DNA from: Bolinopsis microptera
Lineage: Eukaryota; Ctenophora; Tentaculata; Lobata; Bolinopsidae
NCBI RefSeq assembly: GCF_026151205.1
Contig: NC_087076.1
Span: forward strand, 23,430,828-23,494,827
Reading direction: 5' to 3'
DNA length: 64,000 nucleotides
Program-made: the position numbers and the translations under genes
Shown here: positions 249-21,200 of the stretch, one piece after another
Numbering within the stretch: the first letter of the stretch is position 1
Layout of the letters: each line of letters begins with the position of its first letter
The notes under the pieces: generated by a model
What the model was told of the DNA's origin: nothing
What the model saw: the letters and a program-made list of their open reading frames with translations, nothing else
The model's database searches: none

Positions 249-3200
249 GTAAGTGTACGAATTTAAAACAAGTGGGACACAGAGACTAATGATGTCAAGT
301 TCCGGTCCAAACTTTTTCAAAGCATGTCTCATTACGGATAACTGAATTTAGATATTTATGCTTCCAAAGGGAAAATTAAACGAAAGTTAAACTAAATTGA
401 ACAGAATTTTTCTCGCCAAAAAAATACTCCCCGCCATCTTAAAAGCAATGCAATCATAACAATACAAAATAATCTGAAACACGCAACACATGTTTCATTT
501 CCAAAACCTAACTGTGTACAGTCACGACGTGTTTATTTTTCTCTGCTTTTTTCCTGATCATTTCTTCAACTTGAAAATTACGTTCTGCACTGTCTCCGAT
601 TTCTTCGTTCCCGCTCTCCGACTAGCCAAGATCCGGGGACCAAGATACCATTTTTATGGATAGTTTTACCATGGGCCATTATCAAGTCTAAAGTTTTTTT
701 GTAAACGGCCTAGTATCATCTCTACGTCAGTAACAAATTAAATTACTTCAGCTGTCCCAAAGTTGGGTGCACCAACAGCGTCAACCGGATCGTACACCTT
801 TACAGCTTCTGTGGTATTGCCTTCAGACAGAGATACGTAAGTCTATAGGATACCTTTTTTAGATACCATCAGTTTCAACAAAATAAAATCTGTGCTTGAC
901 AACAGACTTAAAGCTACGACTGGGGACCCGAAGTATTTTGTTGTGAGACAGCGCCCAATCGGGTACGAATCACGGAATCAGCTGTTTCAAAACACCGTGT
1001 ATCATTGTATGCAAAACAACACATCCGTATTCATGGGTCATGTTTATTGCTTCATTTTGTAATCTTCAAAAGGTTTGGAAAAAATTTCTTCGCTTCCCTC
1101 AACCGAATTTTAACTTTATAACCAATTCAGATTTGATGATTGGAAGATATACGAAGTGCAAGTCGCGGACAGTACTGGTGATATAATTTGCACCATTACT
1201 ACTATCAACGCAGACTCCGATACTTACGATTGCCCGTACACTCTATCTACTTCTGATGCTGATTGGAAAGCCAAATTAAAAGATGGTTTCTCACTGCATG
1301 TCTATCATATCATATATCCAAGCAAAGATGTAGTTTATATGACTAAAAAAGACGTTACTGGATTTTATGTTGGACCTCCACCCTTGGACGCAGGTATTTG
1401 CTATATAATATGTACTCACCTATTTTTCTATTTCGATAAAACTCACGATGTGTTGTATGACTAGTTGACAGCCGCTATTATTAACAGTGTTGCCGTCTAA
1501 TGCTATTATTTACTGTACATGTATTTGATTCGTAACTTCCTAATTTTTGTCATTTCTTCAGGTGACGTCACGATTAGTGTTGTCGGCGCTAAAACTGTAA
1601 CTATGATTTTCAAAGACACTTTGCCTGCTGATATTGGAGAAATCACTGCAATCGGCTCATACGAACCAGTGTATGCAATGAAGATAAGTGAGAAGGATGG
1701 TGAAGAGAAACAAGCTTACGATGCTAAGAGTAAGTTAATTTGTGTAACTGTGAATCATAATCTCCATGTTTGAGAAATAAACGTTACTAAACAGCTATAC
1801 ATCTGAGCTGTTGTTGATATTTGTCATCATTAAAATTATGATTTAAGGAACTTATCTCCAGAGTTAACTAAAATAACCTAAAAAATAACCTAATATTCGT
1901 TTCTAGAACTGGCTTCCAGTTTATATAGAAGAATTGCGCGATTGTAACGTGGACTGTTCCCAACAGTTTGCACCATACAATTACAAAGATAACTCCATCG
2001 TACCCAACTTAATAAAACATTGTTTTAGATATAGCCGATCTTGTAAGCCAGACCGAATACGATTGGAGCAGTGTCCTAGAGCCTCTCAAGAGCTATGTTG
2101 TTGTGATATCTTCCAGCACTGACAAAGGACCCGGCGGAGATATGACCAAAGAATTCAACACTGGTAATTTTATGTTTTTCAAAGTTTTAAATAAGAGTAC
2201 AATATTTTGAGGTTAATAAAAAATGTGTACTTATTCGCACTGTATAGTGTATGTTATATTTTTTAATTCTACATTTTAAAGATACTTATTTAAAAGTGTT
2301 AAACAGAGTAATAGTCTCATAAGCTTGCGTACATGTCATTATGTATGCAAAATATTTATCCGATATGTCGAAACACGTTTGGAGTTAATGTAAATTTTTG
2401 GTTAAACTGAGGAATTGTTTTTAGGTCACGCTTCTGCGACCATCACGGACGTTGAAGTTTCCTCAACCGCCCGCGATGTGACAATCAAGTTAGCCGATAC
2501 CAGTCCAGGAGGCAACACCAAAGTCAAGGTAAGTCTTGATTCGTATTCATTATGAAGACCCCCTCTGCTCCCTTAACCAATAACCAACTTTGTTGAACTG
2601 TCACCACAATCTTGTCTGCATCAAACTCAAGCCTGGCTATTCAGTATTCACGTATAAAAAGATCAGGACAATCATAACAATTTCAGTATACTCTGAGTAG
2701 CAAGGCCGAAGTTATCGAAGAGAAGGATTTTGGTGCTGCTAAGGAAGTTACCATATCATACGATGATCTTACTCCACTCACAGAGTACACTTTCACTGTC
2801 ACGGTCCTGACAAATGATGATACACCCTCCGAGACAGCCACACACTCTTTCACTCAAGGTAAGGATAAATGGTGTTAGTAGCAAAATTCTTGTTGTATCT
2901 TGTATTATGCCACTACTAGGAATAAAGTTTTGCCATTGGCACCAAAATCACCATAAAATAAGTCTTTTGATACGAAATTAAACGAACAATTTCTCTCAGG
3001 ACCAACACTCCCAACACCAATAGATTCCTCAAAAATAGTGTTGACTGACAATACTGCTACAGTGGAATTCATGCCAGAAGAAGGTTTCACTTACCGCTTA
3101 AAGGTATCCAAAAAGGTTGCCGAAGTATGGACAGTTGTGATGGAGTATGTTTACCCTGAGCCGGTTGTACCAGCTAATACCAGCAGCGAAAGTGAGGATG

Positions 3201-6200
3201 ATACCAGCAGCGAAAGTGGGGCTGATAACCTACCTTCACGAAGAAAGCGTAATGTTACACCAGTTAGTCATAAATTTACAGGTCTAGAATCAAATGTTGC
3301 CTACAAAATTTCAATGACCTCCGAGGGAAATGTTGGTGAAACGGAAACAGTACTGACAAGTGATCCTGTTGAAGTTGAAGTTACAACTTGTAAGTTTTTT
3401 TGATTGTTGATCATCACTTTAATATTTCCATATTATAGAGATTTTACTCACACTACAGTACTTAGCCACCTTCTCTGCCACCGCATAACTTTTTGATTTT
3501 TAGTTCTCCTTGGCAACGTTTTAATTCTTCCCTACCTTGTTAAATAACTGCTTACACCCTTCTGTTTGAAACCGAAACTCCAACTCATTATGTCCATTTT
3601 ATTATTATTTCCTTCCATTTTATTATTTTGTAACCTTTAAACCTCCCTCTCCAGATGCCTGTAGTAAATCTACTTTGACGGACGCGGGAGTAACCGTGAG
3701 TTTGGAAGATAGCGAACAAGTCGTCTCAGACTTTTTGTCTCCAGATAGTAACGTGCCTTTCACGCTCACCTGTCCGGTAAGACTTGATTCACCTCTTCAG
3801 AATACTTGATATCCCGAAATTTATATTAAATTTTATCCTTCCACAGCCTTTCTCTTCGATACTTCAGTACAGACAATTTGATAGACAATATATCACAAAC
3901 TCCGGTGTTCGTGTACATATTTAGTCTTAGGTTGTTTGACAATAAAAAGTTCCCACGCTCCAGGGTGACCTTGTTGTTAACATAATTGACAGTGTAACTG
4001 AACTGCTAGGAAACGCTACCACAACCTCTGTCTTGTGCCTTGCCGCAGGATGGGGCGATTACATTGAATGTGTGGAGGTTCCAGGTATGTTTCATCCCTC
4101 ATCTCATACCTTTAACACATTTCTTTCAACTTCAACCACCATCATTGGGCTTGATTCATTTTTGGCCTTAGTGGGTCTCTTAATTTTCCGATATGGACCT
4201 GTGTTTATAGGGTCTGCAACCTTCATCCATTGGATGTTGTTGTTTAACAGTGAGTGACAACTACGTCTTACAAATTTCCTCTGATGGTTTTTCATTATGT
4301 ACCTTTAACCCAATTCAACTAGATCAATTGGTTTCTTGGTAGTTAATTCATATTGTGGAGTTTTACATTTTTGGGATTGGATCGGTCTTGATAAGGTCTG
4401 CACCTTGCAACCATTGGATGTTGTTGATTAAAAGTTCGAATCCGATATCGATAGTAACAACCAGATCATATACAAATTTCTTTTGAAGGTTAAATAAATT
4501 AATCATTGAGAATTATGCTATTGTGGGCACGGCCCTGAGACATTGCGTTTTAAATAAAAATACATTTTCTTTCAGATAACTGTGATCTAGCTAACAGTTA
4601 CACATGTGGTAAGCAAAAAAAACTTTTCCTTTTGTATCGAACTTGTTTTCTGATTTTGTAACTGCGCACCGCAAACATTTTCTCTTTTGCTACGAACTTA
4701 GGGACCTGTGTTGAACGCAATGCTGAAAATTCTAGCCTTGATTGACATTGCCAACCGGCCTTTCAGATCTTTGCTCTTTAAAACGAAGCAAACATGACAA
4801 TGTGCGTGGTGCGAAGCAACAATGTCCTCCAAAGTTGTGTCCCAAAACATTGTGAAAGATTACGACTACCCAAATGTGTTCTCATCATTGAAATTTCAAG
4901 TGTAAAACTGCATCATCTTTGGAGTTTGTGCAAAACTTTTGAGTGTTCGTTGGATCACTGATAATACAACTGTTGAGCACACACTGCTGACAGTTTGATC
5001 ACCTTCCAATCGTAACATTAATTTCTGGTTCAAAAATTACATTTCATCTAATTTTTAATTGTCTTGTTATTTATTATTTAATCTAGTATTAACAGCAGGC
5101 TGCCCATCACAAGACGAAGTGAACGCAGTGTACGGTGATTATACCTGGCCGAGCACTAACCCAAATACTTACGCAGTACAACCCTGCGTCCACGACGTAA
5201 GTTAATCATGAGATCGAATTTATACTATTTGATTAATTCAATTAAGAGATGTTTTATTTGCTACTTCTCAATCTCATTAAGACAATTTGCAAGATTGAGT
5301 GGATTTGGAAAATTGTGTATTCAAGGGTAAAACAGGCCCAGAGAAGGATTCTAAAAGTAAAGGAGGGTCAGAGTTTGTGCACTTGCAGTGTTGAAGAAAC
5401 CACTCCCTGATAATAGTAGCTTTTTGCTTGTATCACAAGCAACTAGATGTTCCTGTGAGTTGTATACAGAAATTGGTGCTGCTTCTTTACTGGAAGCTTC
5501 AAACATCTTCATTGTATCGTCAGTGGAATTAATGCTATCAGCAAGCTAGTTTGCCAGAGCTGTTTTAGTCGCTCATTGATGTGATTTGTGAGCTAGTTGA
5601 TTTTTCGTTTTAGTTCTTTCCTGTATTTCACAGAATTTTCGCTGGGTTTCAGTAGCTTAGTATTACTTTTTTTTGTACCTGACAAATCCATAATTCATAT
5701 CTAACAGGTACAATTGTTGCTTCCTGAAGTTTACAGTAAAACTGGTTAGTAGCAGCTATATTACATGCCATGCCATCTTTGATCGGACTTTGTGTCGAGT
5801 TGCTGACAAATAATAATGATTTCAGGAAATGTTCTATGCTCAGAAGTTCTGTCCAGGAAGCAGCCCAATCAAAGATTCAACTGTAATGAAGCAAGGCTTT
5901 GGTGACACAGACTTTTCCTCTTGCCCTTCTGCAGTTACATCTAAAATCGACGCAATATCTGAGGTAAGGTAGCAGAGGAACCATATATTAGATGTAAAGA
6001 GAACCATATACATATTATATTTTCTATCAAAAACAAATAAAATGTTGATTTCGAATATATTTTTCTTGAGACCCCTTAATTACAAGAAGCTTTAGTTCCT
6101 GAGGTAGCACCATAACAGAATAGCTATTTGCGAGAAATCAAAAATTGATTGGGACTTGAAACTTGGTATGCATAAATTCGAAACATATTGACACAATGTG

Positions 6201-9200
6201 ATGAAGAGTTTTCAGTTTTCAGCAACTTCTCCTTCATCAAGGCTGAACGCTGCCGCTGAACGCCGCCGCCGAACGCCGAACGCCGCCGCCGATTGTCCAG
6301 CCACGCGCCGCCGCCGCCGTTTTCAAACGGCGCACACGGCGTGATCCTGTTTATACGCCGAATGCGCCGTTTCAGGCCAAAATTCAAGATTGTTAAAAAT
6401 TGCTCTCCACATGGCATTATTCTAGAGGACAATTGAATTTGCGGAATCACGTGACCTTACACCGATTACGCCGCCGCCGCCGGCGGTGTACAGCACTGTC
6501 CTTCATAATATTTTGTATCATTTCTCAAAAAAGTCACATTTTCTATGGTGCACCCTGTACCATAGAAGAGCACTTTTTCTTTCTGCAATGCCGATACAAT
6601 AAATCAAATTGTTGCAAATATATCAAATATTGCAGAATGATGTGACGAAAATAACAGCGGACTCTATATCAGATGACATCAGGACCATAACAGCTAATCA
6701 AGGAACGCAAATGAGTTCCCTTGACGTTAAGAAAACTGTCCAAATTATTGATGATCTCGTAAACTTATCGATAATTACAGACGACACCCTTAATAATGTG
6801 ATTGCCACGATGGACAATGTACAAACTAAAACCGAGCTCGGAGAATTAAGGGAGAACGATACAATTAGTGACCAGTTCAGACAATCTGCTGTGAGTCTCA
6901 CTCGTGCTCTTGTGAAGAAAAGTGAGAGTAAAGCAGATTTGAAATCTCTCAACTCTGTTGGTTAGTTTAAGTCTATCATATGCTTGATAAGGCCAGGGTC
7001 GATGTAACATTTCATTTACCTTCGTTTATTTTCATAACACGGTGATTTTATATGATGTCATTCGACCAGACATTGCGTGAACGGGCACAATTTTGACCGG
7101 TCACTAAAATTAACACTCGAAGGCATCCAAACCTGTAAAATCCAAAATTTCTAGGTTGAGTTCAAGTAGACAAATAATATTGACCAAGAAAAGCAATTAG
7201 TGGCAAAGCTGAACGTGTTAAATTTAGTTCGATGGTAGAAATTTGAAATGATCGAAATTAAAAAGTAGTTATATCCTGGACAATAAGTTCGTAGTGGAAG
7301 TGGAACACCTTCGCGAACATTTTTAACGGACTTTTATTTGGACGAACCGTGATGAGCAGGCTTTATTTCAACGGGAATTAAAATGAACACCTTGGCCCCT
7401 AGCGTCCAATTAATGTCCGTTCAAATGAAGTCCAGTGAGGTACATCTTTTAATCGTTTTTTTGCACGATTTATTGTTATAACGTTGTATAATGTATGCGG
7501 CCTTGTATACAGCCTTGTAGTTGAAGTACGGCTTTATCATACCTTATCATACCTTATCATACCTTATCATACCTTATCATACCTTATCATATCTTATCAT
7601 ACCTTATCATACCTTATCATACCTTATCATACCTTATCATACCTTATCATACCTTATCATATCTTATCATAACTTATCATACCTTATCATACCTTATCAT
7701 ACCTTATCATACCTTATCATACCTTATCATACCTTATCATACCTTATCATACCTTATCATACCTTATCATACCTTATCATACCTTATCATACCTTATCAT
7801 ACCTTATCATACCTTATCATACCTTGTCATACCTTATCATACCTTATCATACCTTATCATACCTTATCATACCTTATCATACCTTATCATACCTTATCAT
7901 ACCTTGTCATACCTTATCATACCTTATCATACCTTATCATACCTTATCATACCGTATCATACCTTATCAATTATCATACCTTATCATACCTTATCATACC
8001 TTATCATACCTTATCATACCTTATCATACCTTATCATACCTTATCATACCTTATCATACCTTATCATACCTTATCATACCTTATCATACCTTATCATACC
8101 TTATCATACCTTATCATAACTTATCATACCTTATCATACCTTATCATACCTTATCATACCTTATCATACCTTATCATACCTTATCATACCTTATCATACC
8201 TTATCATACCTTATCATACCTTATCATAACTTATCATACCTTATCATATCTTATCATACCTTGGCATACCTTGTCATACCTTGTCAAGAAAACAACAATT
8301 TCAAGAAAACAAAAATTTTATTTAGTATCAATTAATGCAGACAAAAATATATTTCATATATATAACTAGCACGAACTTTAGATCAGATACCTTTTCATAC
8401 CTTTTCATACTTGTCATACCTTATCATACCTTACCATGCCTTATCATACCTTATTGCTTATGCTTATATTATCGGTAAAAAGTCTTCCTAGGCCCAGGTT
8501 TCTATTTCAAACGTGTAGGGACTACCGGTGGAGCATGAATTCTCATGCTCATGTGACCTTATGTTTTCACGAACGCTGAACAAGATAAAACTAATTATGG
8601 TTATCATACTTGATGCAATTGAATGGAATCAATTTTGTTATAAGCTGCGCGGCTTCTCGGGTGAGTCGTTACAGGGTAAGTTTATCAGCATTCAAAAAAG
8701 TAAAACTACTGTTTTCTAGGGTTTGCTGTTGCAGAGGTTTTGGAGGATGAGGTAACCAATGTTTTAGTGCTATCTGGTGAAACTAACGTAATAAAAGGTA
8801 GCACGAACAAATACAATGAATCTGAAACCTACTTCAAGGTAAGATAATTTTGACTTTATTTATTAATCAAATATTAAAATTTATTCCATATAGTTTTCCA
8901 GAGGATGCTCAAGTGACAAGCAAAAGTATTGCACTGTAGTTAACCGATTTAGAATTTGCAGTTAAATGGCCTTGTATTGTGATATGTTGGATATGCAGTT
9001 GGATAGGCCTTATGGTTTTTATACTTGTGGTTTTTATGGTTTTTATACTGGATACGCCAGTAGATATAATATAAGTAAAGTACTAGTCACTTAATTGAAT
9101 CAGTAACGGTCCCCGTTGTGCAGGTGCTGTGGGTATGTTGAGTACGGTCAGTGCTAAATTTTGTACAGAACCCCAGGTTTATTGGGTAAATTGAGTACGT

Positions 9201-12200
9201 TCAGTTTTAAATTTTGTAGAGTTCCATAGGTTGTGCGAGTGCTGTGGGTACGTTAAGTACATTCAGTGCTAAATTTTTAAAGAATTGTGTGTTTTAAGAA
9301 TTGTTCAGAGTTTGATTTGTGCGTTATCAAAGAAAATATATCCACTGTCTAGCTCGGAAACTGAGAGTTAAATTATACACGGTTCAAATTTACTTGTGAG
9401 ACATTAAAACGATGAAATAACTTTCATGAAATATTTTGATTCAGTAACAGAATATTGAACATCAATATCGGACTTAAAACTTGATAATTTACTACGTTAT
9501 AATTTAGTTCAAGAATCACCCTCTTCCGTTCCGAAAACTTGGGTACAATTTAGTTCTCTGCTTACATACAAATTTTTATTAGAGGATTGTACAAGTTGTT
9601 TGAATATACTAAACCCCTTTGTTTTAGATTCAAGTAAAATTCCTGCTGCAAACGTTAGAAGGAAAAAATACCAGTAATTTACATCTTCTTCTAAATTGTA
9701 AACAGGTGTGGCAGGAGATTCGATGTCCAAAACGTTGATGATTGGAGAAACAAAAGTAAAGTGTTCAAATTTAGTATGTTGAACATCTCCATTAGATTTT
9801 TGTAGCAACATATCCAGTTCATCTACCTTGAATCCTTCCCATGAAAATATAAAAGTTTCCCTTTTTATAGTTGCGTTAAGGAATGAGAACATCTTGCCAT
9901 GGTTGTGATTCAAATGTAAAAACAGGGTTTTGTTTTCACGGTAAAGGTGTGCTGTTTGGTCATTTCCCTCAAAGAAAAAGTAGTCCTGTGTGTTGTTTGA
10001 ATTTACTGGAAATTCAATGACAAAGGACAGTGCAGAAACAACACTAAATAAAAAATTGAAATTCATTTTTGGGAGAGTGGGAGTGCTAAGATTTCATTGC
10101 TTTTATACCTTTGGTTTTATGGTACGATGCCATATCGATTATACGAATCTCGAGCAAGTTTAATTGAATCCTTGATTATAGTAAACAGGTTGAAAATTTC
10201 AGAGTGTTTCTCTTTAAGAATTCTCTTGGCTGAAGCACCTGAGGCAGACTGTATTTTCTCTACCACTCTTCTTTGGTCATCGGTAACCTGCTCACGCTGA
10301 GGTTGACATATTGGCAACACACCATAAGATAAACTAAGGAACAGATTCTGCAGGGTATGAAGATGATTCTGCACCACGATATCCAACTGATGGTTTTTGA
10401 TGAGTTTTTGAATTTCAAAAATCTCCTCCATAGTTGTACAATTAAATATTGCCTTTGATAAACTACTCAGATCTTCATCATCTTTCTGCATAGCTTTTAT
10501 TTGATCATTTAATGTGCGAAGTTTTCTTTCACAATCTTCTTCATTTTCATCTAATTGTTTTGTATGATCATTTGCCATATTCTGTATGAGCTCATTGTGA
10601 GCTGCCCTCAGAGCTTGTATCTTATCACTGCACTCGCCCTTCATCAACTCATCAAGATCAGACATTTGACGTCGATGAAAGTTTTTGATTTTCTCAATTT
10701 CGTTATAACAGTCTTTTCGATATTCCCTCTTTGTACGCTCAAGGTTGCTTTTATGAGAAACCTGCATTCTATCAATCTTTTTCAAAAACTTAGATTTCTG
10801 TTTTTTGTGGGCTTCGAGACAGTCCAGATATTTTTTCTTATAATCAACACTAGGTTTAATTCTAGCCTGATCTCTATCGTCATATTCATCAATAACTGTT
10901 AAACCTCCATCAGATTGCCCATCATCATCATAGCTATCAACAACACTAAGCTGATCATCGCTTTCATCATCTGCTTTGTATTCATCAACTATTTTTAACC
11001 CGTCATCATTTTGTGGATTAATTTTTGGAGACTTTGGAGGTTCAGAATCTGTTGCCTTCTCCCCAAGATCCTTATACCTATCAACAATTTCTAGTCCGTC
11101 ATCTGACTGTGAATCATAATTCGGATATTTGCGGGGATCAGAATCTCTTGGTTTTTCTCCTGGATCTTTATACTGATCGATGTCTACTAACCCATCATCA
11201 TATTGTGGATCTTTTGCCGGTGATTTTTTCTTATCACTTCCAGGTCTGTTGTAATTCCTAGATCTTTTTGGAGGCAATCTCACTGCATTTGGATCATCGG
11301 GAAGGTAAACCCTCTTTTTTGGATTGCTATTCATATCTTTATGATTGTGACTTACTAGTACTAAACTAGATTTATTGTGCTCTCTATACTTATGTTTGTA
11401 TAAGGAGGCATTTGTCGGAAAAGATTTTTTGCAGTGTTCACATAAAAGAGCCATGTCTAAGATATGTTTTTAGGAGCTCTATTTATACTCATCTAACAAC
11501 GCTAAACTGAAATGGATTTGAAGCAGCTGTATGAAAATCCTAAATTTTCAGCATCTTTTGCTGGACAAGAACGATTTTTTCGTGCATTGCAACAAGATCA
11601 CCAACGCGTGAGCAGGAGAGCAGTAAACACAAAACTAAAGTCTATAGATAGTTATACCTTACACAAGCCAACCAGGAAGCCAACACTGTACAGAAGAGTT
11701 TATACCAAAAGGATAAAATATCTTTATCAAGCGGATCTTGTAGACCTTTCAAGTCTCAAACATGACAATGATGGATTCAAGTGGATAATAGTCATCATAG
11801 ACACTTTTAGCAAGAAAGCATGGGGTTTCAAGATGAAAAACAAGAGTGCAAACTCGATAGTTGGAGTTATGAAACCATTTTTTCGCCTACATACCCCTGA
11901 AAAGATTCAATTCGATCAAGGTTCTGAGTTTTACAATGCTGCATTTCTCAAACTGCTAAAGAAGTATAAAATTAAGCACTACAGTGTCTATAGTGAACAA
12001 AAAGCTGCAATCATTGAGCGATTTTGCAGAACTCTAAAAACTCGAATGTTTAGATATTTCACTGCTCGAGGGTCTCACAGGTGGATTGATATTTTACAGG
12101 ATCTTATCGATGGTTATAATAAAACCAAACATAGCTCCACATTATTCGCTCCAAACAATGTAAGTCTAGCTAATGAGAGGGAAGTTAGACAGAATCTTTT

Positions 12201-15200
12201 TCCCAGAGTTGTAAAGGAGAAAAAGCACACCAAAGCATTATTAAAAGTGGGTGACTCTGTTAGAATAACTAGAAAGAAGGGTATCTTTCAAAAAGGTTAT
12301 GAAATGACATTTTCATATGAAATCTTTGAAGTAAGTGAAGTGAAAACTACATATCCTGTTACATATGGATTGAAGGACTATAAAGGCGAAGAAATTAAGG
12401 GTTCATTTTACACCAGTGAAATTCAATTGGTTGACAAATCTGATGGTATATGGCCAATAGAGAGGATTGTTAGCACTCGTAAAAGAAGCGGACAGACTGA
12501 ATACCTTGTGAAATTTCTAGGATATCCTAGTGAAGCAAACAGTTGGATAGCCCAGCAAGATCTGTTCAACACATAAATCATGCCTGTGAAATTCCTTGCT
12601 TCTCACAACTGCATCATTTTCGGACCCTCTCGGGCAGGAAAAACCCAGTTCATGCTAGAGGTAATAAGACAAAAGCTAGTACATCCGATGCCTAAAAACA
12701 TATATTTCGTGTATAGCATTGAACAAGACTTTATGAAAACATGGAATGAAACTGAAGAACAAGCAATTACTTTTATCCAAGGTCTTGATTTTGATAAAAT
12801 GAACACTTCAGAGCCCAGTCTCCTTGTGGTGGATGACTTGATCTTAAGCGGAGATAACAAGGAGATGGCGAACTGCTTCATCCTCGGTTCTCATCACCGA
12901 TCAATCTCCACTTTCTACATAACACAGAACTTATTTCCAAACTGTCCGATGTTCAGGATGATGAGCTCAAATGCACATTATTTTGTGCTTTTCAATAGTC
13001 AGCGTCATTTCAGACAAGTGAACACGTTGGCAAGGCAGATTTTCTGTGGAAAGGATTTAAAGAGGATAACCAATGCCTATTTAAGGAGTTCAAAGCAACC
13101 CAGAGGATTTATTGTTTTGAGTTTTGCCCCTGAACTTCCCGAAGAATTAACAGTGCTAGCAGACTGGTGGCAATGGTTTCCAAGCGTTTATCTGTGAAAC
13201 AAGCCAATTCATTGAGACAACACCGCTACATTTTAGAAAAACTATCATCTAGTAGCAAAAAAGACAGACTCAAGATTTTACAGAATGCTCCATCTGAATT
13301 ATTTAAAGTTCTCAATATGATATTCAAACTTCTAGCTGATGAAAAGTTACACCTTTCAAGTCACCAAGACAGAAAAATTGGGAAGCATAGAAGACTTATT
13401 CGATCCACGAGTGGTCTTAAGGGTACGCATATAAAAAGGAAATTTTCTGGACAAAGTGGCGGTACACTATCATCTATTCTGTCTACAGTTTTACCGGTAA
13501 TTGCTGGACTAGTTCAATCGATTCTTTAAATGTCAAGATTTATCTTGGCTCCTAGAGACGGTGTGTCAAACAATGGTGAAGATGTGTTTTTGCTCCTTCC
13601 AACAGAAGGACTCAGTGAGTCAAATAAAAGTATTGAACTACCATCGGGTCTTGTTCCACGATTAGACAATGTGCATAATGCAGAGTCAAAGAAGATTTTG
13701 GATAAACTTATGATGAAAATTGCTAAAGCCAACATTGCACGGAACAAGAATGGGCTGGTGACGGTGGGAAGTAGAGTAATGGACGCTAAATTTGACGATT
13801 TTGTTTTAGATTGTTGCAATGGTGAGTTTTCCAAATGTTATGAAGAAATGTATTGTTTACTTCGTAAAAATGGTATTACATTTTAAACACCGAGTATCAA
13901 TTGTCTATAAAAGCAAAAAGATTTATCTGCATCCAACGAATAAGATGGACAACATACGCAAGATTGTTATTATTGGAGGCCAAGATGGGAATCCATCACG
14001 CTTTATTTCGAAAGTTGAGCCTGTCAAACTTGCTGAGGACTGTGAAATGGCATTAACTTCTTTATACCATGGTGAGGTGTACAACATTCACGATGGAAAT
14101 AATAAAGTGTACTTCTATTATGCATCTCGCGAGCTCTCTATGGAGGCATTGAAACAGAAAAAGGGGAAATCTGAGACTCTAATACCTAGTGCAATGTCTA
14201 GTACATTGACGGATTTGCAATTACCTGAACCTTCAATGGTAATTGTTCCTGAAGGAAGCTACAGCTCAGTATTTACATTGTGTTGGGTGATTTCCAACTT
14301 GATAAAAGAAAAGGTACGACTTGTAAAGAAGAGAGATGGAATGATTGCCACTATAGACAAGCAATATGGTATTATCAATATCGAAATCACTAATCTATAC
14401 ATGGTTATCGAGGGGGTACAGAACACTCCTTGGACGCTAATGGGAGTGCATGAAGAATTGAAGAAGATTGAAGATCAATATTCAGAGCGATTTACGATAA
14501 ATGATAGCGACTTTCACTGTAGCGATTTTCCTGGATTTGTTTATGCAAACATTATTGAGAATTCCTACATTAATGGTAAATTGTCCCGAAACCTGGGTAT
14601 GGTACCGATTAAAACTGCACCTCAGTGGTCACTCTATGAACCAACACACCCAAACTTTGTGCCAATCAACATAAAGCAATTTTCGACAATTTTGATTGAG
14701 CTTAGAGATATAAAAGGACAGTTCATCAAGTTCAACCCAAATTTCAAGACTGTCATTTCGCTCAGCATCCGACCTATAAAAAGGTGATAAATCAGAGCTT
14801 GGTACTTCTACACAAGTTGCAACCATGGAAATTTTCAAACCGGAAACTCTAAAAAGTGGAGCATATCGCTCTGTATTCGTGCAAAAGGGTGGTGCTGTTG
14901 AAATGGATCGCTACATTTACGGAATGCAAGGTGAGGGATTGGGAAATTGGTTTGGCGCTCTCATGAAACAAGCATTACCCTTGATAAGCAGTGGTATAAA
15001 AGGAATAGCCAAGGCTACAAAACCAATCGCTATAGCTGCTGGAAAAGAGTTAATCACTGCTGGAGCAAAACGTGGAGCAAAAGAGCTTACTGAACTTTCC
15101 AATCGTATCAATCCAACGGAAATTAAAAACACTGTTGTTCACAGACCCCATAAAAAGAGAAGAAAATCAAAGAAATGGCAAAGTTTGTAAATAGTTCTGA

Positions 15201-18200
15201 ATCTGTTTCATCTTCCTTGCTACTATGGAACGATCGTCCTACACAGGTTTCTATTGAAGAAACTTATGATTTGAAAGTATGGCCAGTTACTAATTTATTC
15301 AATGATGGTCCCATCAATTTTACTCTCCCTCCTCAACCAAAAGGTCTCCTCACAGATTTGCATATCGTTACCAAGTTAAAACTACAGAAAGATGGTGAGG
15401 ACTTTTCAAAACCGAATAAGAATGTTTCCATAATAAATAATCTCGCAAACAGTCTCTGGGGCGAAGTCTCCGTAATCTGTTCTGATCGTACGGAGCTATG
15501 TCAGAGTATGAAGAACGCCTATGCCTATCAAACATTTTTCAACACCGCTCTAAATTCGGAAAAAAATCGGGAAGATTTTCTTTTCTATAATGAAGCGTTT
15601 CTAATGGATGAGGGGGTGTCTAAAAAGTCTGAAGAAGATTTACGATTGTTTTGGAAGTGGGATGAAAGTCATAAGAGCGCATTTGATGACATGGTTATTG
15701 AAGATATGGAGGAGAACGGAGAGGATGTAATCGAGAAGAAGAAAGAAGCCTTTTGGAATGCTTCATCCCTTCCAAAAGCTTTGTTAATAGAAGCGCAAAG
15801 AAGTGTGTTAGCTACCTCGGGATTGTCTGGCGATGAATTGGAGGTGGCTTTGGAAAATTATATATCCAGCACAGTAAATAATTGGATTCCAACTGAAGTG
15901 AACCCTGCTGCAAGCAAACGTAGTGCTCTGGTCAATCGAGGACAGAGTCTTACTCTGAATTCTAAATTCCAATGCCCCCTGCTTAATACTCTGAAGTGTC
16001 TTCCGACAAATATGAAGTTACGGTTAAGTTTAACAAAAAACAAAGATGAGTTTTTGCTTCTTTGTGGTGATGATGTTCATGGCTATAGTATTGTGCTTGA
16101 AGATTGCTACATACTTGCAACATACTACAGAGTACGAGATGAAATACACAGTCTCATTGAAGAGAGACGTCAGAAAGAGCCTATCCCATATTTCATTTCA
16201 AGGCCTGAAATAATAATCAGACCTGTAGCACAGAGCAGTAAAATTATCAGAATGTCTGATGTTTTCTCTGACACTCTTCCTCCATATGCATTTTTTACAC
16301 TACAACGGAGCAGAGATTTCGATGGACGGTCAAACACAAATCCATTTATATTCCATGGATTCAAGAAATTCCAATTTTACCGCAATGGTGTGCCATACTT
16401 TAATGACCCACTGGAGGTTGGTACTATCGATAAGCTTGGGGATCACAACTACGTCTATAAGGACTGTGGAGAATATTTTAGACAGCTTTATCGTACCATT
16501 GGAAAGGATTCTAAGGGAAATTGTCTGATTGATAGCACAAACTTTCATCTGAACTTTATGGTTGGAATGAGTTTTGGTGCTGACAGAAGCAGCTTGACAG
16601 AGAGACATTTAAATCTCCAAGAGAAAGCATCGACCTACCTTGAAATTGATCTGGGAATTGAGGATATACCGGAGGATCTAATTCTCATAGTATATGCAGT
16701 CTTTGACCGTCAACTTCAAATTGATGCCGATCGTATGGTCAGAATAATCGAGTAATAAAAGCAGCTAGAGATTCAACAGTCTATCATTTCTAGCATATAC
16801 TTGTCAGTGTTGTTTCTACTTGTGATATGAAGCCTCTATCAACACTGCAAATAAACAGAATCCTTGAAGAAAACGGTGTGACTAAAAAATATTATATCGG
16901 AACCTACCCCTCATGTATTACTCTAAGAACCAAAAAGAAAACATACGCTTTTATTACAAATACCGATGAACACGATAAAACGGGACAGCACTGGAATGCA
17001 TGGTTTGTTGAAGGAGAAAAGATCTCATTCTTTGACAGCTTTGGACGTGATTGGGAGGATGCTACCCTACCAAAACATTATAGAGACATTGTTGAACCAT
17101 TTGAACAAATAACTTATAGCACGAGCAGAGTACAAGGATGGGATAGCGTTGCATGTGGCTTTTTCTGTATTCATTTTCTTTATGTTAAATCTTTGGGTTT
17201 AGAGTATGAGGATTTTTTAAATGAATATACCAAAGATTTTGAAAAAAATGATAAGATTGTGCATGCATTTTACAAATCTATTCAGTAGAGTTGTGTTTTA
17301 ATTGTTCCAGAGATTCGCATCAAATATCGAATATATAAGCAGGATAAGTGGGAAACAGGTTCATTTCTCAAAATTCATTATGGACTTTGTTGCTCCTCTG
17401 TTTGTGCTGTCAATGTATGGACTCTACTCAAAAAATGGAAGCAGATGCTCGAAGTACAAAAATCAAAGTCATGACCATAAAAGGTTACACACAGGATCAC
17501 AATGCCAACACCAAAAAGAACAAGCTTTGCCGATATTGTTTGCAAAAAAGCAGCAAAAGACATGTTTGCCCTGGAAAATACGTTTATGAATTTATAATGG
17601 AATCCTTTATCAAGCGTGTTTTCTTGAACACTCAGCCATTTTGTTACTTGGATCTGTATCAAAACTGCAAGTCAACTATTGTTCAAGAACAACTCTTTGC
17701 AGACTGTAGCAACATAGACTCAATTTTATATCAAAATTTAGTCTATTACATTTGTGACTATGAGTTTTAAAAACAGCTGAATCTGTTTACACTGCTCACT
17801 TCTTGATTAGCACTTCCGAATCTGCAGCTATGAACTATTTTCATGATGTATACTTGGGATTTCTTGCTGAGCAGATTGCTCGACAATGTGAACAAATGTC
17901 TGCTCTCAAGTGCTCAGCGTGTGAATCAAAAATAAAGAGCCCTCTGTTACACATTTGTCATCAACGTGGACTTTTAGAGAAGCTGCAAATTCACTTTGAG
18001 CACGTAAGAGGACCCATGTTAACGGATATAGAAGTTTATTACGATCAAGTGCAAGAGCTTTTACCCCACAGTGATAACCCTTTGAAAGACAAAAATAATT
18101 ATGTCAATGCTGGCCGTCTGTGGTTGCAAATGTGCTCAGCAGAAATAGTATTCTACGGACGTTACATTAACGAATTCAACCATTCTTTCATAGACAGAGC

Positions 18201-21200
18201 TTTTAAGAAAGTGAAAAAAGATGGGGCTGCAAGAATCTGAACGGAACATTGGATATCGCTTCATGAATTTGCGCCGATACTTCCCCAGTCGCTCAAGACA
18301 TGTTAATCCTAGTAATGAGTTCCCCGTCACATGATAATCACATGTCATCTTCAATAAAGACTCTGTCCTGAAAAGATCTCATCATTTCTGAAAGATGAAC
18401 TTTGAATTCGTTATCACAGCTACCGAGGGTTTCAGTACTCAGAATGGAGGATTTATACTCAGAGAACTCACTCTCATATTTCCAAATGAGCAGGAGCAGC
18501 ATTTTCAATTCAAGAATCCAGATACCATGTACCTGAATCCAGATGAGATGAACATGGCAAAGTTTTCTCAGCGGAATTTGAATGGCTTTTCACCAACCGA
18601 TAACGAAAGTTGTTGCCTCCCTACGGCGGTATATCCTAAAATACTTGAGGAGATACAGCATTGTAGAATATACTGTGCAGGAGAAATTGAACGTTGTTTC
18701 TTTGCTAGAAACCTACCAGATACTGAAGTTATTGATGTTTATTCTCTGTTTGACTTCAAGTACCCAGCACAGCTCGATAATCCGGGTTGTTTTAAATTAC
18801 ACCGTTACAGATATTGTTCACTTGCAAAAGCTAGATATTTGGCTCGAAGACTTGAAGGATATAAATTATGAATTAAGCGCTCATTTTTTTCTTTTAAACT
18901 AACGCATGCGAAATATTACAGTTTATTTTGTGATGTGGACTTGATAAAATACTTTTTAGCTTCATCATGAAACACTGTGTATCACTTGTTTTTTTATCCT
19001 TATAGACTTTTACTCTGATAGTGAGTGAAGCTAGCACATAGCGTATAATTACAGATGGACATAGAAAAGGTCTCCATTATCATAACTGTGCGTTACATAA
19101 CTCATTTTAGTGGGAGTCCCCACATACATTTGACAAGTGTGGAGAGAATACTCTCCTGATTACGTCTTTTCTTGAGAGCCAACCCCAATCTGTGATATAG
19201 CTGACTCATGGCACTGGAGATAGGCTCAGATCTCGCTAAATGAACTCTTACTATCAACTATACCACAGCAATTTTGAAATATTTTTGAGTTTTGTAAACG
19301 CAAGCTATGATGAGGGAGGGAGGGAGGGAGGAATTGGGTGAGTGGATCTCTAAGACAGCAGTTCATCATAGAATGAAGAGCTATCATTGAGATCCGGAGC
19401 TGCTAAGCCCCCATTGGGAATGATTTTACTTGGAGGAGAAGCCTCATATTTATACTAGATTCTAGTGTACCTCACTATAAACTCGTTATAGGATAATTGA
19501 CTTTTAACTGTGACGTTATTATCATAGGAAACATGTTAAAAGCCCAGCAGTGATTCTGCACGCTTTATGATCTCATATCGCCTTAAATTCTTTAACAATA
19601 ACCCCGCAGCATAATTGACTTTGAACTCTGACGTTATTATCATAGTTTACATGTTAACTGTTTATGAGTCATTCCAGGTGCTGGTTCACGTGATTTCAAC
19701 CGTATGCGCTGGATGGATGAAATTTATGATCTCATATCACCCCAGATTCTTGAACAATAGGTGATGTGATTGTAATTTGGTTATATGCTCCTACGGAACA
19801 GGTAATGAAATAGCACATGGATGATCTAAATTCACCTCAAATTCCTGAGGAACGATCTGCAGGAGTTGTAATTTAGTTATGAGCACTTCAGAATGGTAAA
19901 TGAAATAAAGAATATAGCTTACCAGTGACATAACGTATGTGAAGAGTTTTGTAGCATTTGTACAGGTTACAGAGTGAATATGACGGTAGATTTTAGAATC
20001 AGTGTTATAACACATTTAATATCATGCTCTGAACAATTCTTAAACAATAAATTGGTTTTTATGTTATAAACCTATGGAACTCTACAAAATTTAACTGTGT
20101 ACGTACTCAATTTACCCAATAAACCTAGGGTTCTGTACAAAATTTAGCACTGAATGTACTTAACGTACCCACAGCACTCGCACAACCTATGGAACTCTAC
20201 AAAATTTAAAACTGAACGTACTCAATTTACCCAATAAACCTGGGGTTCTGTACAAAATTTAGCACTGACCGTACTCAACATACCCACAGCACCTGCACAA
20301 CGGGGACCGTTACTGATTCAATTAAGTGACGAGTACTTTACTTATATTATATCTACTTACGCCATGAACTCTAAACATATTTCATTTTACCTTACGTATT
20401 TTTGACGGTAGAATCGAAATCGAATAAAAGTGGTCCGGTAATGATTGATTTGATGTTTATGAGTATTTTTATTGGCCGACCTGACCTTACTGAGAATCTT
20501 AAAAACCACCAATTCTAAATCGGTGCACTATAACAAACAAAGCCATTGAAATAAGTGGACTATTCTTGAGAATTGTAATAATACTGATGGCAAATGTCAT
20601 GCTATTGGAATTGCTAATCTACCGCGGATAGTTTTCAACTCATTCTTCGACAGGCAGAGATGAATTTGGCGAAGGATCAGGTTTTAACAGCGGTATACTA
20701 TGGAACGGACAAAGTATTTCCATCCAGTGCAATTTCTTCTGCAGACGAGGACTCGTTTGAAAAAATTGCAAAGGAAATAGCGAAAAGCCCTGACTTTAAG
20801 AAGAGCAATGACGATGATGATAAAAAGGTACATTTTATTGCAGTTAGCACAATTTTGAATCTCACATAGCCTCGATTAAAAAATAATTCTGCAATTTATC
20901 TCAAATTTTATACCAGTACCAGATTCGTATCCCATGCTATTCTTGACAATGAACTGTAACTGTGAGTATGTGATAATGAGTCATGTCAAGTTTGAGTAAT
21001 GGTTTTAATACTAATAATAAGGTGAAAAATCATTGCATGCTGATCAAAATTTCCTATTTATCTTTTCAGGTTTCGATTGTGGCTACAGTCATTTCTGATA
21101 TCAATGTTGTGCAAAACGATGAGATTTTGTCCCAGATAGACATTAACATAACATTCAACGTCAAGGTTGGAAAATTATCATCATTCCTAGTACTTGACAC

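Follow-up and report, generated by a model that had tools for sequence, protein, structure and literature searches.

A Polinton family without DNA polymerase B in Bolinopsis microptera and its possible replication in trans by PolB-only elements

How does a Polinton that carries no polymerase of its own come to be copied? Polintons are defined as self-synthesising transposons, and the element considered here departs from that definition. It occupies positions 9059-20357 (11,299 bp) of a 64,000-nucleotide stretch of the genome of the ctenophore Bolinopsis microptera (contig NC_087076.1, positions 23,430,828 to 23,494,827), the whole of which we call the window. We find that this element and nine sister copies elsewhere in the genome, together family A, have no DNA polymerase B (PolB), and that PolB-only elements, family C, reside in the same genome. 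We put it a little short of an even chance that the element is the virion-and-integrase half of a split (bipartite) Polinton, copied in trans by the PolB of those separate elements. In a canonical Polinton, replication of the linear genome by PolB starts at protein-primed ends, and insertion is the work of the integrase (PMC6431247, PMC11071308). Families B, D and E are further hexon-bearing families of the genome, and C followed by a number denotes a contig or the copy on it.

Family A and the absence of PolB

We begin with the integrity of the element. An earlier reading made from the letters alone (the sequence-only reading) had called its ends complete, and rereading both arms and the duplication bears this out: the termini are AG...CT, and a perfect 6-bp target-site duplication, TACGCC, stands on both sides. 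That reading gave terminal inverted repeats of 218 bp with one mismatch; the single mismatch (position 27) stands, and the length is corrected to 219 bp for each arm. Its naming of the genes is borne out for the integrase and protease (Pfam) and for the hexon (predicted fold); the ATPase has sub-threshold matches, and the names "penton" and "pVI-like" are given by position and size, without a database match. The genes run in the order g1 and g2 (both on the minus strand), integrase, ATPase, g5, g6, penton candidate, pVI-like candidate, hexon, protease, g11, g12 and g13. The features, with the lengths of the open reading frames (ORFs) in amino acids (aa), are:

9053-9058, no strand: left copy of the target-site duplication, TACGCC, 6 bp, read and rechecked
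9059-9277, no strand: left terminal inverted repeat, 219 bp, starting AGTAGATATAATATAAGTAA
9509-10066, minus: g1, 185 aa; in B, D and each of the ten A copies; no Pfam or PHROG match
10117-11454, minus: g2, 445 aa; N-terminal C2H2-type zinc finger (sub-threshold in Pfam), disordered acidic middle, long coiled coil
11512-12576, plus: integrase (rve) with C-terminal chromodomain, 354 aa; Pfam PF00665 E 1.3e-12, PF00385 E 4.2e-8
12580-13197, plus: predicted genome-packaging ATPase with P-loop, 205 aa; sub-threshold ATPase_2 / Adeno_IVa2, and position; 78% identical in family B
13173-13529, plus: g5, small basic protein, 118 aa; in A, B and D; no Pfam or PHROG match
13530-13886, plus: g6, 118 aa; partial in two A copies (C9, C10a)
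13819-14787, plus: penton-type minor capsid candidate, 322-aa ORF; between ATPase and hexon; in A, B and D
14825-15190, plus: pVI-like candidate, 121 aa; in A, B and D; name from the sequence-only reading
15175-16755, plus: hexon, predicted double jelly-roll major capsid protein, 526 aa; predicted structure and Foldseek
16827-17288, plus: adenovirus-type maturation protease, 153 aa; Pfam PF00770 (Peptidase_C5) E 4.8e-7, 30.1 bits against a cut-off of 21.3
17417-17770, plus: g11, 117 aa; in family A copies; no assigned function
17830-18240, plus: g12, 136 aa; family-B counterpart adjoins PolB
18395-18871, plus: g13, 158 aa; family-B counterpart adjoins PolB
18903-20068, no strand: no recognised gene; shorter than the 3.7-kb PolB and without a trace of it
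20069-20183, no strand: imperfect 115-bp duplication of part of the right terminal repeat, 90% identical to 20184-20298
20139-20357, no strand: right terminal inverted repeat, 219 bp, ending CT
20358-20363, no strand: right copy of the target-site duplication, TACGCC, 6 bp, rechecked

Is the polymerase really absent? With two PolB proteins from the same genome as queries, tblastn gives no match at E 0.01 in the window or in the 18 pieces that make up the nine sister copies, and three PolB motifs, sought in six frames, are absent from 19 of 19 family-A pieces and present in 8 of 8 PolB loci used as positive controls. No replicase, helicase and primase included, rises above threshold in Pfam (20 ORFs) or in PHROGs (10 ORFs), and none of the window ORFs of unassigned function has a polymerase, helicase or primase match in either. 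Protein-primed PolB in cis, the mark of self-synthesis, is found in 0 of the ten family-A copies. The sequence-only reading was therefore right that PolB is missing, and also that the gene-free gap (18903..20068, against a PolB of 3.7 kb) is too small to hold it. A PolB hidden in this 1.2-kb gap or divided by introns is ruled out, there being neither a tblastn match nor a motif. A deletion private to the window copy, which that reading had doubted, is ruled out likewise, the nine sister copies examined all being without PolB. Neither outcome that would have refuted that reading, PolB in a sister copy or a polymerase match in an ORF of unassigned function, occurred. The largest ORF without an assigned function, g2, was considered as an unrecognised replicase and set aside on its predicted fold of zinc finger, disordered acidic stretch and coiled coil (pLDDT 68.3, of limited weight).

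The terminal repeat has 32 matches in the 264.65-Mb genome, and our sample of family A is the window element together with the nine sister copies, fetched in pieces. The sister copies have the same gene order, as far as it is recognisable, and amino acid identities of 76-100% in nearly all ORFs; in one integrase a broken 5' part has 56% identity, and a number of genes are incomplete, disrupted or truncated at the borders of the pieces. Perfect 6-bp duplications flank eight of the nine, hence nine of ten with the window element, and every one is different. Six uninterrupted copies measure 11.3-12.6 kb; in the other four, at 13.9-19.4 kb, insertions interrupt genes. These secondary insertions lie in or beside genes (the integrase, hexon and g5-g6 regions), and some carry ORFs of 311-614 aa.

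The ratio of nonsynonymous to synonymous substitution rates (dN/dS) between the window element and six diverged copies is 0.06-0.38, except for four outliers (integrase in C3b, 0.47; g5 in C3a, 0.53; g13 in C7, 0.43, and in C9, 0.51), two of which are in broken or partial ORFs. The three near-identical copies yield ratios of 0 to 0.77, but with so few changes that these are little informative. Where a break or a piece border interrupts a gene, the partial ORF entered the calculation, and in the integrase copies C10a and C3b stop codons were passed over; dS between the subfamilies is about 0.04-0.39. The genes of family A are under purifying selection. Because the copies share the absence of PolB, sit at different insertion sites and have constrained genes, we conclude that family A has multiplied and diverged without PolB while retaining its virion genes.

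PolB-only elements and their termini

The next question is where a polymerase for family A might reside. A genome scan with PF03175 gives 20 matches, and a search with a PolB protein gives 42 matches among 39 of 219 candidates scored; the PF03175 scan by itself misses the PolB of families B and E. For the genomic context, which covers one genome and the best candidates scored, we merged rows by hand into places (hexon from 64 to 37, integrase from 84 to 36, PolB to 16 of family C and 18 others) and dropped integrase rows of E about 1e-6 or weaker, most of which resemble retroelements.

Family C comprises at least 16 PolB places with 58-100% identity to the query (one 5' part has 52%), of which 12 of 16 are fully open and encode 1245-1261 aa. 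PF03175 over its cut-off and the motifs "DANNLYG", "NNAIYG" and "SDTDS" mark the product as a protein-primed family B polymerase. As a counterpoint, PF03175 is absent from the hmmscan results for two whole ORFs; sequence comparison gives 3231 homologues, and a PDB search gave 0 matches. With dN/dS of 0.08-0.22 in unsaturated pairs, the PolB of family C is under purifying selection. Near-identical young copies exist in both families A and C. Both ends were read in three family-C elements:

C10:10.242-10.251 Mb: 9.06 kb, duplication CAGGAT
C3:11.681-11.689 Mb: 8.2 kb, duplication CGTGTC
C5:13.158-13.167 Mb: 9.7 kb, without a clean duplication

Each of the three has its own inverted ends. Between these lies PolB with a zinc-finger ORF, complete or partial; neither an integrase nor a capsid gene was found in any of the three. 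The zinc-finger ORF has a sub-threshold D5_N match (E 0.026), on which we do not rely. When the 13 family-A proteins are compared with 17 pieces from PolB loci, there is no match except the zinc finger of g2. The two gene sets are also apart in the genome: an integrase lies within 15 kb of 34 of the 37 hexon places, around the 16 family-C PolB places no listed hexon or integrase comes closer than 410 kb (0 of 16 within 50 kb), and the ten family-A copies are separated from every listed PolB by 145 kb to 10 Mb.

We then turn to the terminal sequences. Family A starts AGTAGATATAATATA and family B starts AGTAAGAGATATTTACC; the family-C elements start AGTAGTATACAATAT, AGTAGTATACATAATAG or AGTAGTATGTAATAT, and the start common to the three that were read is AGTAGTAT. 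The first 20 bases were compared from the terminus inward; in each of 5000 shuffles the common AGTA stayed in place and the remaining 16 bases were permuted. The similarity between A and C is reached by 54, 2, 36, 16, 6 and 11 of 5000 shuffles in six comparisons and that between A and B by 654 and 644; comparisons within C are reached by 0 to 142, and C and B resemble each other no better than chance (2971 to 5000). On the evidence of the termini, which is modest, C is favoured over B as A's counterpart.

Family A has an integrase and a shell, family C has a polymerase, and both have Polinton-type ends; the simplest reading is that the PolB of C would copy both and the integrase of A would insert both. 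In such a scheme, the PolB of C would recognise the ends of A and prime its replication. The integrase of A would insert C as well as A, since C encodes no integrase. The capsid of A might, with less to suggest it, package both A and C, so that the two travel together. The sequence-only reading had named replication in trans by another element as one option, and it becomes the best-supported one, since, beside PolB-bearing Polintons, PolB-only elements with termini like those of A are present in the genome; we infer it from co-residence, termini and complementary gene content. A further proposition, that A and C are one endogenous DNA virus split into two separately integrating, mutually dependent transposons with a terminal origin sequence in common and together of whole-Polinton size, is tentative, and we lean against it. 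The summed length of A and C is about 19.5-22.2 kb, near that of family B.

PolB-bearing families and competing explanations

Not all PolB of this genome stands apart from capsid genes. The idea that PolB is nowhere linked to a hexon here is refuted by families B and E. A family-B copy of 21.6 kb on C11 has an intron-split PolB at its left end (C11:6.9395-6.947 Mb) with integrase and hexon in the same element, and family E likewise has PolB beside integrase and hexon, with a hexon adjacent at three places. The family-B PolB has several intron-like gaps, in contrast to the single-frame PolB of family C. A non-C PolB lies within 15 kb of five of the 37 hexon places, with the family-B copy on C11 as one more, and 4 of the 18 other PolB places lie within 15 kb of a hexon or integrase. 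Family B is the closest PolB-bearing relative of A that was found (hexon 65-66% identical, integrase 64-66%). Between family-B ends there are five elements of 20.6-22.3 kb and others of 15.8, 27.6 and 29.6 kb; PolB was read in one of the five, that on C11. The presence of PolB in this more distant relative makes it likely that an ancestor of family A lost or exchanged its PolB. One family-B copy (C5:4.397-4.413 Mb) has intact ends and duplication (ATTGAT) with PolB reduced to its 3' part, possibly a snapshot of such a loss.

Several points weigh against the pairing of A with C. With PolB-bearing families B and E in the same genome, C is not the sole possible source of PolB; and five fully open family-B hexons (65-66% identity), together with two copies that are 99.9% identical over 3.7 kb, show that B has also been recently active. 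The agreement in length between A plus C and B may be coincidence. The terminal match of A and C is short and AT-rich (13 of 15 columns identical, with one gap and one mismatch, by eye), its shuffle counts are uncorrected for several comparisons, and no longer sequence common to A and C was found. Two subfamilies of C are no more alike (142 of 5000) than A and C are. The terminal comparison covers families A, B and C; the ends of D are not AG. The PolB map scored 39 of 219 candidates, and PolB places are missing from it, for example the family-B PolB on C11. The family-A copy on C7 and the PolB-only element at C5:13.158-13.167 Mb have no clean 6-bp duplication. Finally, the analysis is of sequence, in which replication itself was not observed.

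The strongest rival explanation makes A a satellite of families B and E, whose PolB would copy it in trans, with C an unrelated capsid-less lineage. It draws on the association of an intron-split PolB with integrase and hexon in B, on the closeness and recent activity of B, and on the 4 of 18 other PolB places near a hexon or integrase. The terminal match of A and B, however, is of a kind attained by 654 and 644 of 5000 shuffles, and at three places with family-B ends (C1:4.95M, C9:15.10M and C18) the hexon contains stops; we regard this explanation as possible and on balance unlikely. Family A may instead be an internal-deletion derivative, dead and passively carried, of a PolB-bearing Polinton, whose gene order is indeed seen in B, the copy at C5:4.397-4.413 Mb having lost most of its PolB while retaining ends and ATTGAT. 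Yet dead elements would not retain 13 ORFs, g12 and g13 stand at the opposite end in A relative to B, and the genes are constrained across ten copies, nine of them with duplications at different sites, over dS of about 0.04-0.39. The selection result strongly disfavours this explanation, and we consider it very improbable.

Two other explanations dispense with the PolB of this genome. If A used no PolB at all, its integrase might mobilise it in a Ginger-like way, by cut and paste or as a DNA transposon that the host replicates, with the capsid genes retained for some other reason: integrase, inverted ends and duplications suffice for insertion, and no replicase of any kind was found in the window ORFs. 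Across subfamilies, however, purifying selection acts on the capsid, protease and packaging genes, an indication of DNA packaging; A retains AGTA termini as in PolB-bearing elements; and retroviral-type integrases require a free linear substrate. We hold this to be improbable. An external helper virus with a protein-primed polymerase, copying A in the manner of a virophage, would suit the numerous relatives of the hexon and g2 in environmental protein sets, by which related elements appear widespread; against it, two hexon scans of IMG/VR gave no relative, and with sources of PolB present in the genome there is no need of an external one. It seems to us more improbable still, if less so than the dead derivative. 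Replication of A by the PolB of family C remains the reading that we prefer.

Known systems, relatives and minor features

How does family A compare with known systems? With Polintons/Mavericks (adintovirus-like) it shares the rve-chromodomain integrase (both domains above the Pfam cut-off), the double jelly-roll capsid, the adenovirus-type protease, a predicted P-loop ATPase, AG...CT ends and a 6-bp duplication; it differs in having no PolB in cis and in its 11.3-kb length, Polintons measuring 15-20 kb (PMC4028283). For an FtsK-like packaging ATPase there are solely sub-threshold Pfam ATPase matches, Adeno_IVa2 included. Adintoviruses are recognised by PolB with an N-terminal OTU-like domain together with a hexon that BLASTP relates to reference adintoviruses, and A has no PolB; Ginger-type cut-and-paste transposons have an integrase without virion genes, and A has constrained virion genes. 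Nine capsid-less Polintons are mentioned in PMC4028283. Family C is likewise without capsid, protease and ATPase, and differs in being without integrase as well and in having a reciprocal PolB-less family in the same genome.

Polinton-like viruses and Tlr1 have, as A does, virion genes without the typical protein-primed PolB (pPolB), and they encode another replicase: a helicase, or PolA or primase fusions (PMC11071308). No such replicase (superfamily 3 helicase, PolA or archaeo-eukaryotic primase fusion, Tlr1-like helicase) was found by Pfam in the 20 ORFs. Meldviruses also combine virion genes with the absence of PolB and have no integrase (PMC11071296), whereas A retains one and has a likely polymerase source in its genome. 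Mavirus-type virophages resemble A as small, capsid-bearing, integrating relatives dependent on another element, and differ in that mavirus has its own pPolB (PMC11071308) and a giant virus as helper. Bidnaviruses and the Drosophila Vesanto virus have a Polinton-type PolB and may have divided genomes, whose segments carry terminal repeats that resemble one another (PMC8363768, PMC11071296); unlike A and C, they have a parvovirus-type single jelly-roll capsid and single-stranded DNA and are not integrated Polintons. Searches of the open-licence PMC literature turned up no account of a Polinton family that has integrase and capsid genes, is without polymerase and is paired with polymerase-only elements. 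Should the split be true, the replication and virion modules of a Polinton-type virus can live apart and complement each other within a host genome, which would offer a natural model for the origin of satellites, virophage-like dependents and segmented DNA viruses such as bidnaviruses; pPolB origin choice would become testable from sequence.

Relatives outside this genome are nearly all unnamed environmental sequences (193 homologues of the hexon and 127 of g2 at E 0.001, with 120 listed for each). The named relatives that top the hexon and PolB lists are from Mnemiopsis leidyi, apart from two proteins of a bacterial metagenome-assembled genome; the M. leidyi hexon relative is 62% identical over 79% of the query and the PolB relative 70%. 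If the gene numbering is serial, these two are not adjacent, their numbers being 283 apart. Ten source genomes are apparently common to the hexon and g2 lists (120 rows each), a coarse indicator in which chance coincidence is possible; by the same coarse indicator one source, Mnemiopsis, is common to the hexon list and the first 47 PolB rows. A PolB scan of IMG/VR gave two contigs at 33-36% identity, in one of which an integrase adjoins PolB; a hexon scan of GTDB gave no relative.

Among the individual genes, the hexon is by its predicted fold (24-sequence alignment, pLDDT 82.8) a double jelly-roll major capsid protein: Foldseek retrieves the capsids of PBCV-1, iridovirus, Sputnik and mavirus, with a best E of 4.3e-15 and TM-scores mostly of 0.4-0.55. 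The penton candidate has no database match that names it; its homology runs from about residue 25-42 onwards, which probably places the true start inside the ORF. A sub-threshold P-loop match links the ATPase ORF to a family named RNA_helicase (E 0.016). For g13 a PDB search gave 0 matches; an NCBIfam scan gave nothing useful, and Rfam has no match to a known RNA family in the window element. Judged by eye, g1 (window 9509-10066) has a hydrophobic N-terminus and a hydrophobic stretch near residue 130 and resembles a small membrane protein; an envelope or receptor role would be only a guess.

Some further loci deserve mention. A 0.9-kb stretch between family-A-like ends (C13:4.7536-4.7545 Mb) is probably a non-autonomous derivative, and the 3.6-5.2-kb stretches bounded by family-C ends (C13:11.7717-11.7753 Mb, C7:1.3390-1.3440 Mb, C89:4.0-9.2 kb) are probable deletion derivatives. 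Family-C PolB also occurs in head-to-head pairs (C9:0.663/0.670, C7:6.691/6.701, C9:6.595/6.605 and C13:13.625/13.630 Mb), possibly palindromic dimers, nested insertions or assembly effects; the arms of the pair at C9:0.66 Mb agree at 100% over 1,722 bp, with a 303-bp centre between them. A further hexon family of the genome has about 25% identity. In family D (C8:2.880-2.893 Mb; hexon 53%) no PolB was found, and its inverted ends of about 2.3 kb, which are not AG...CT, hold a g1-like gene and a zinc-finger ORF resembling that of the PolB-only elements.

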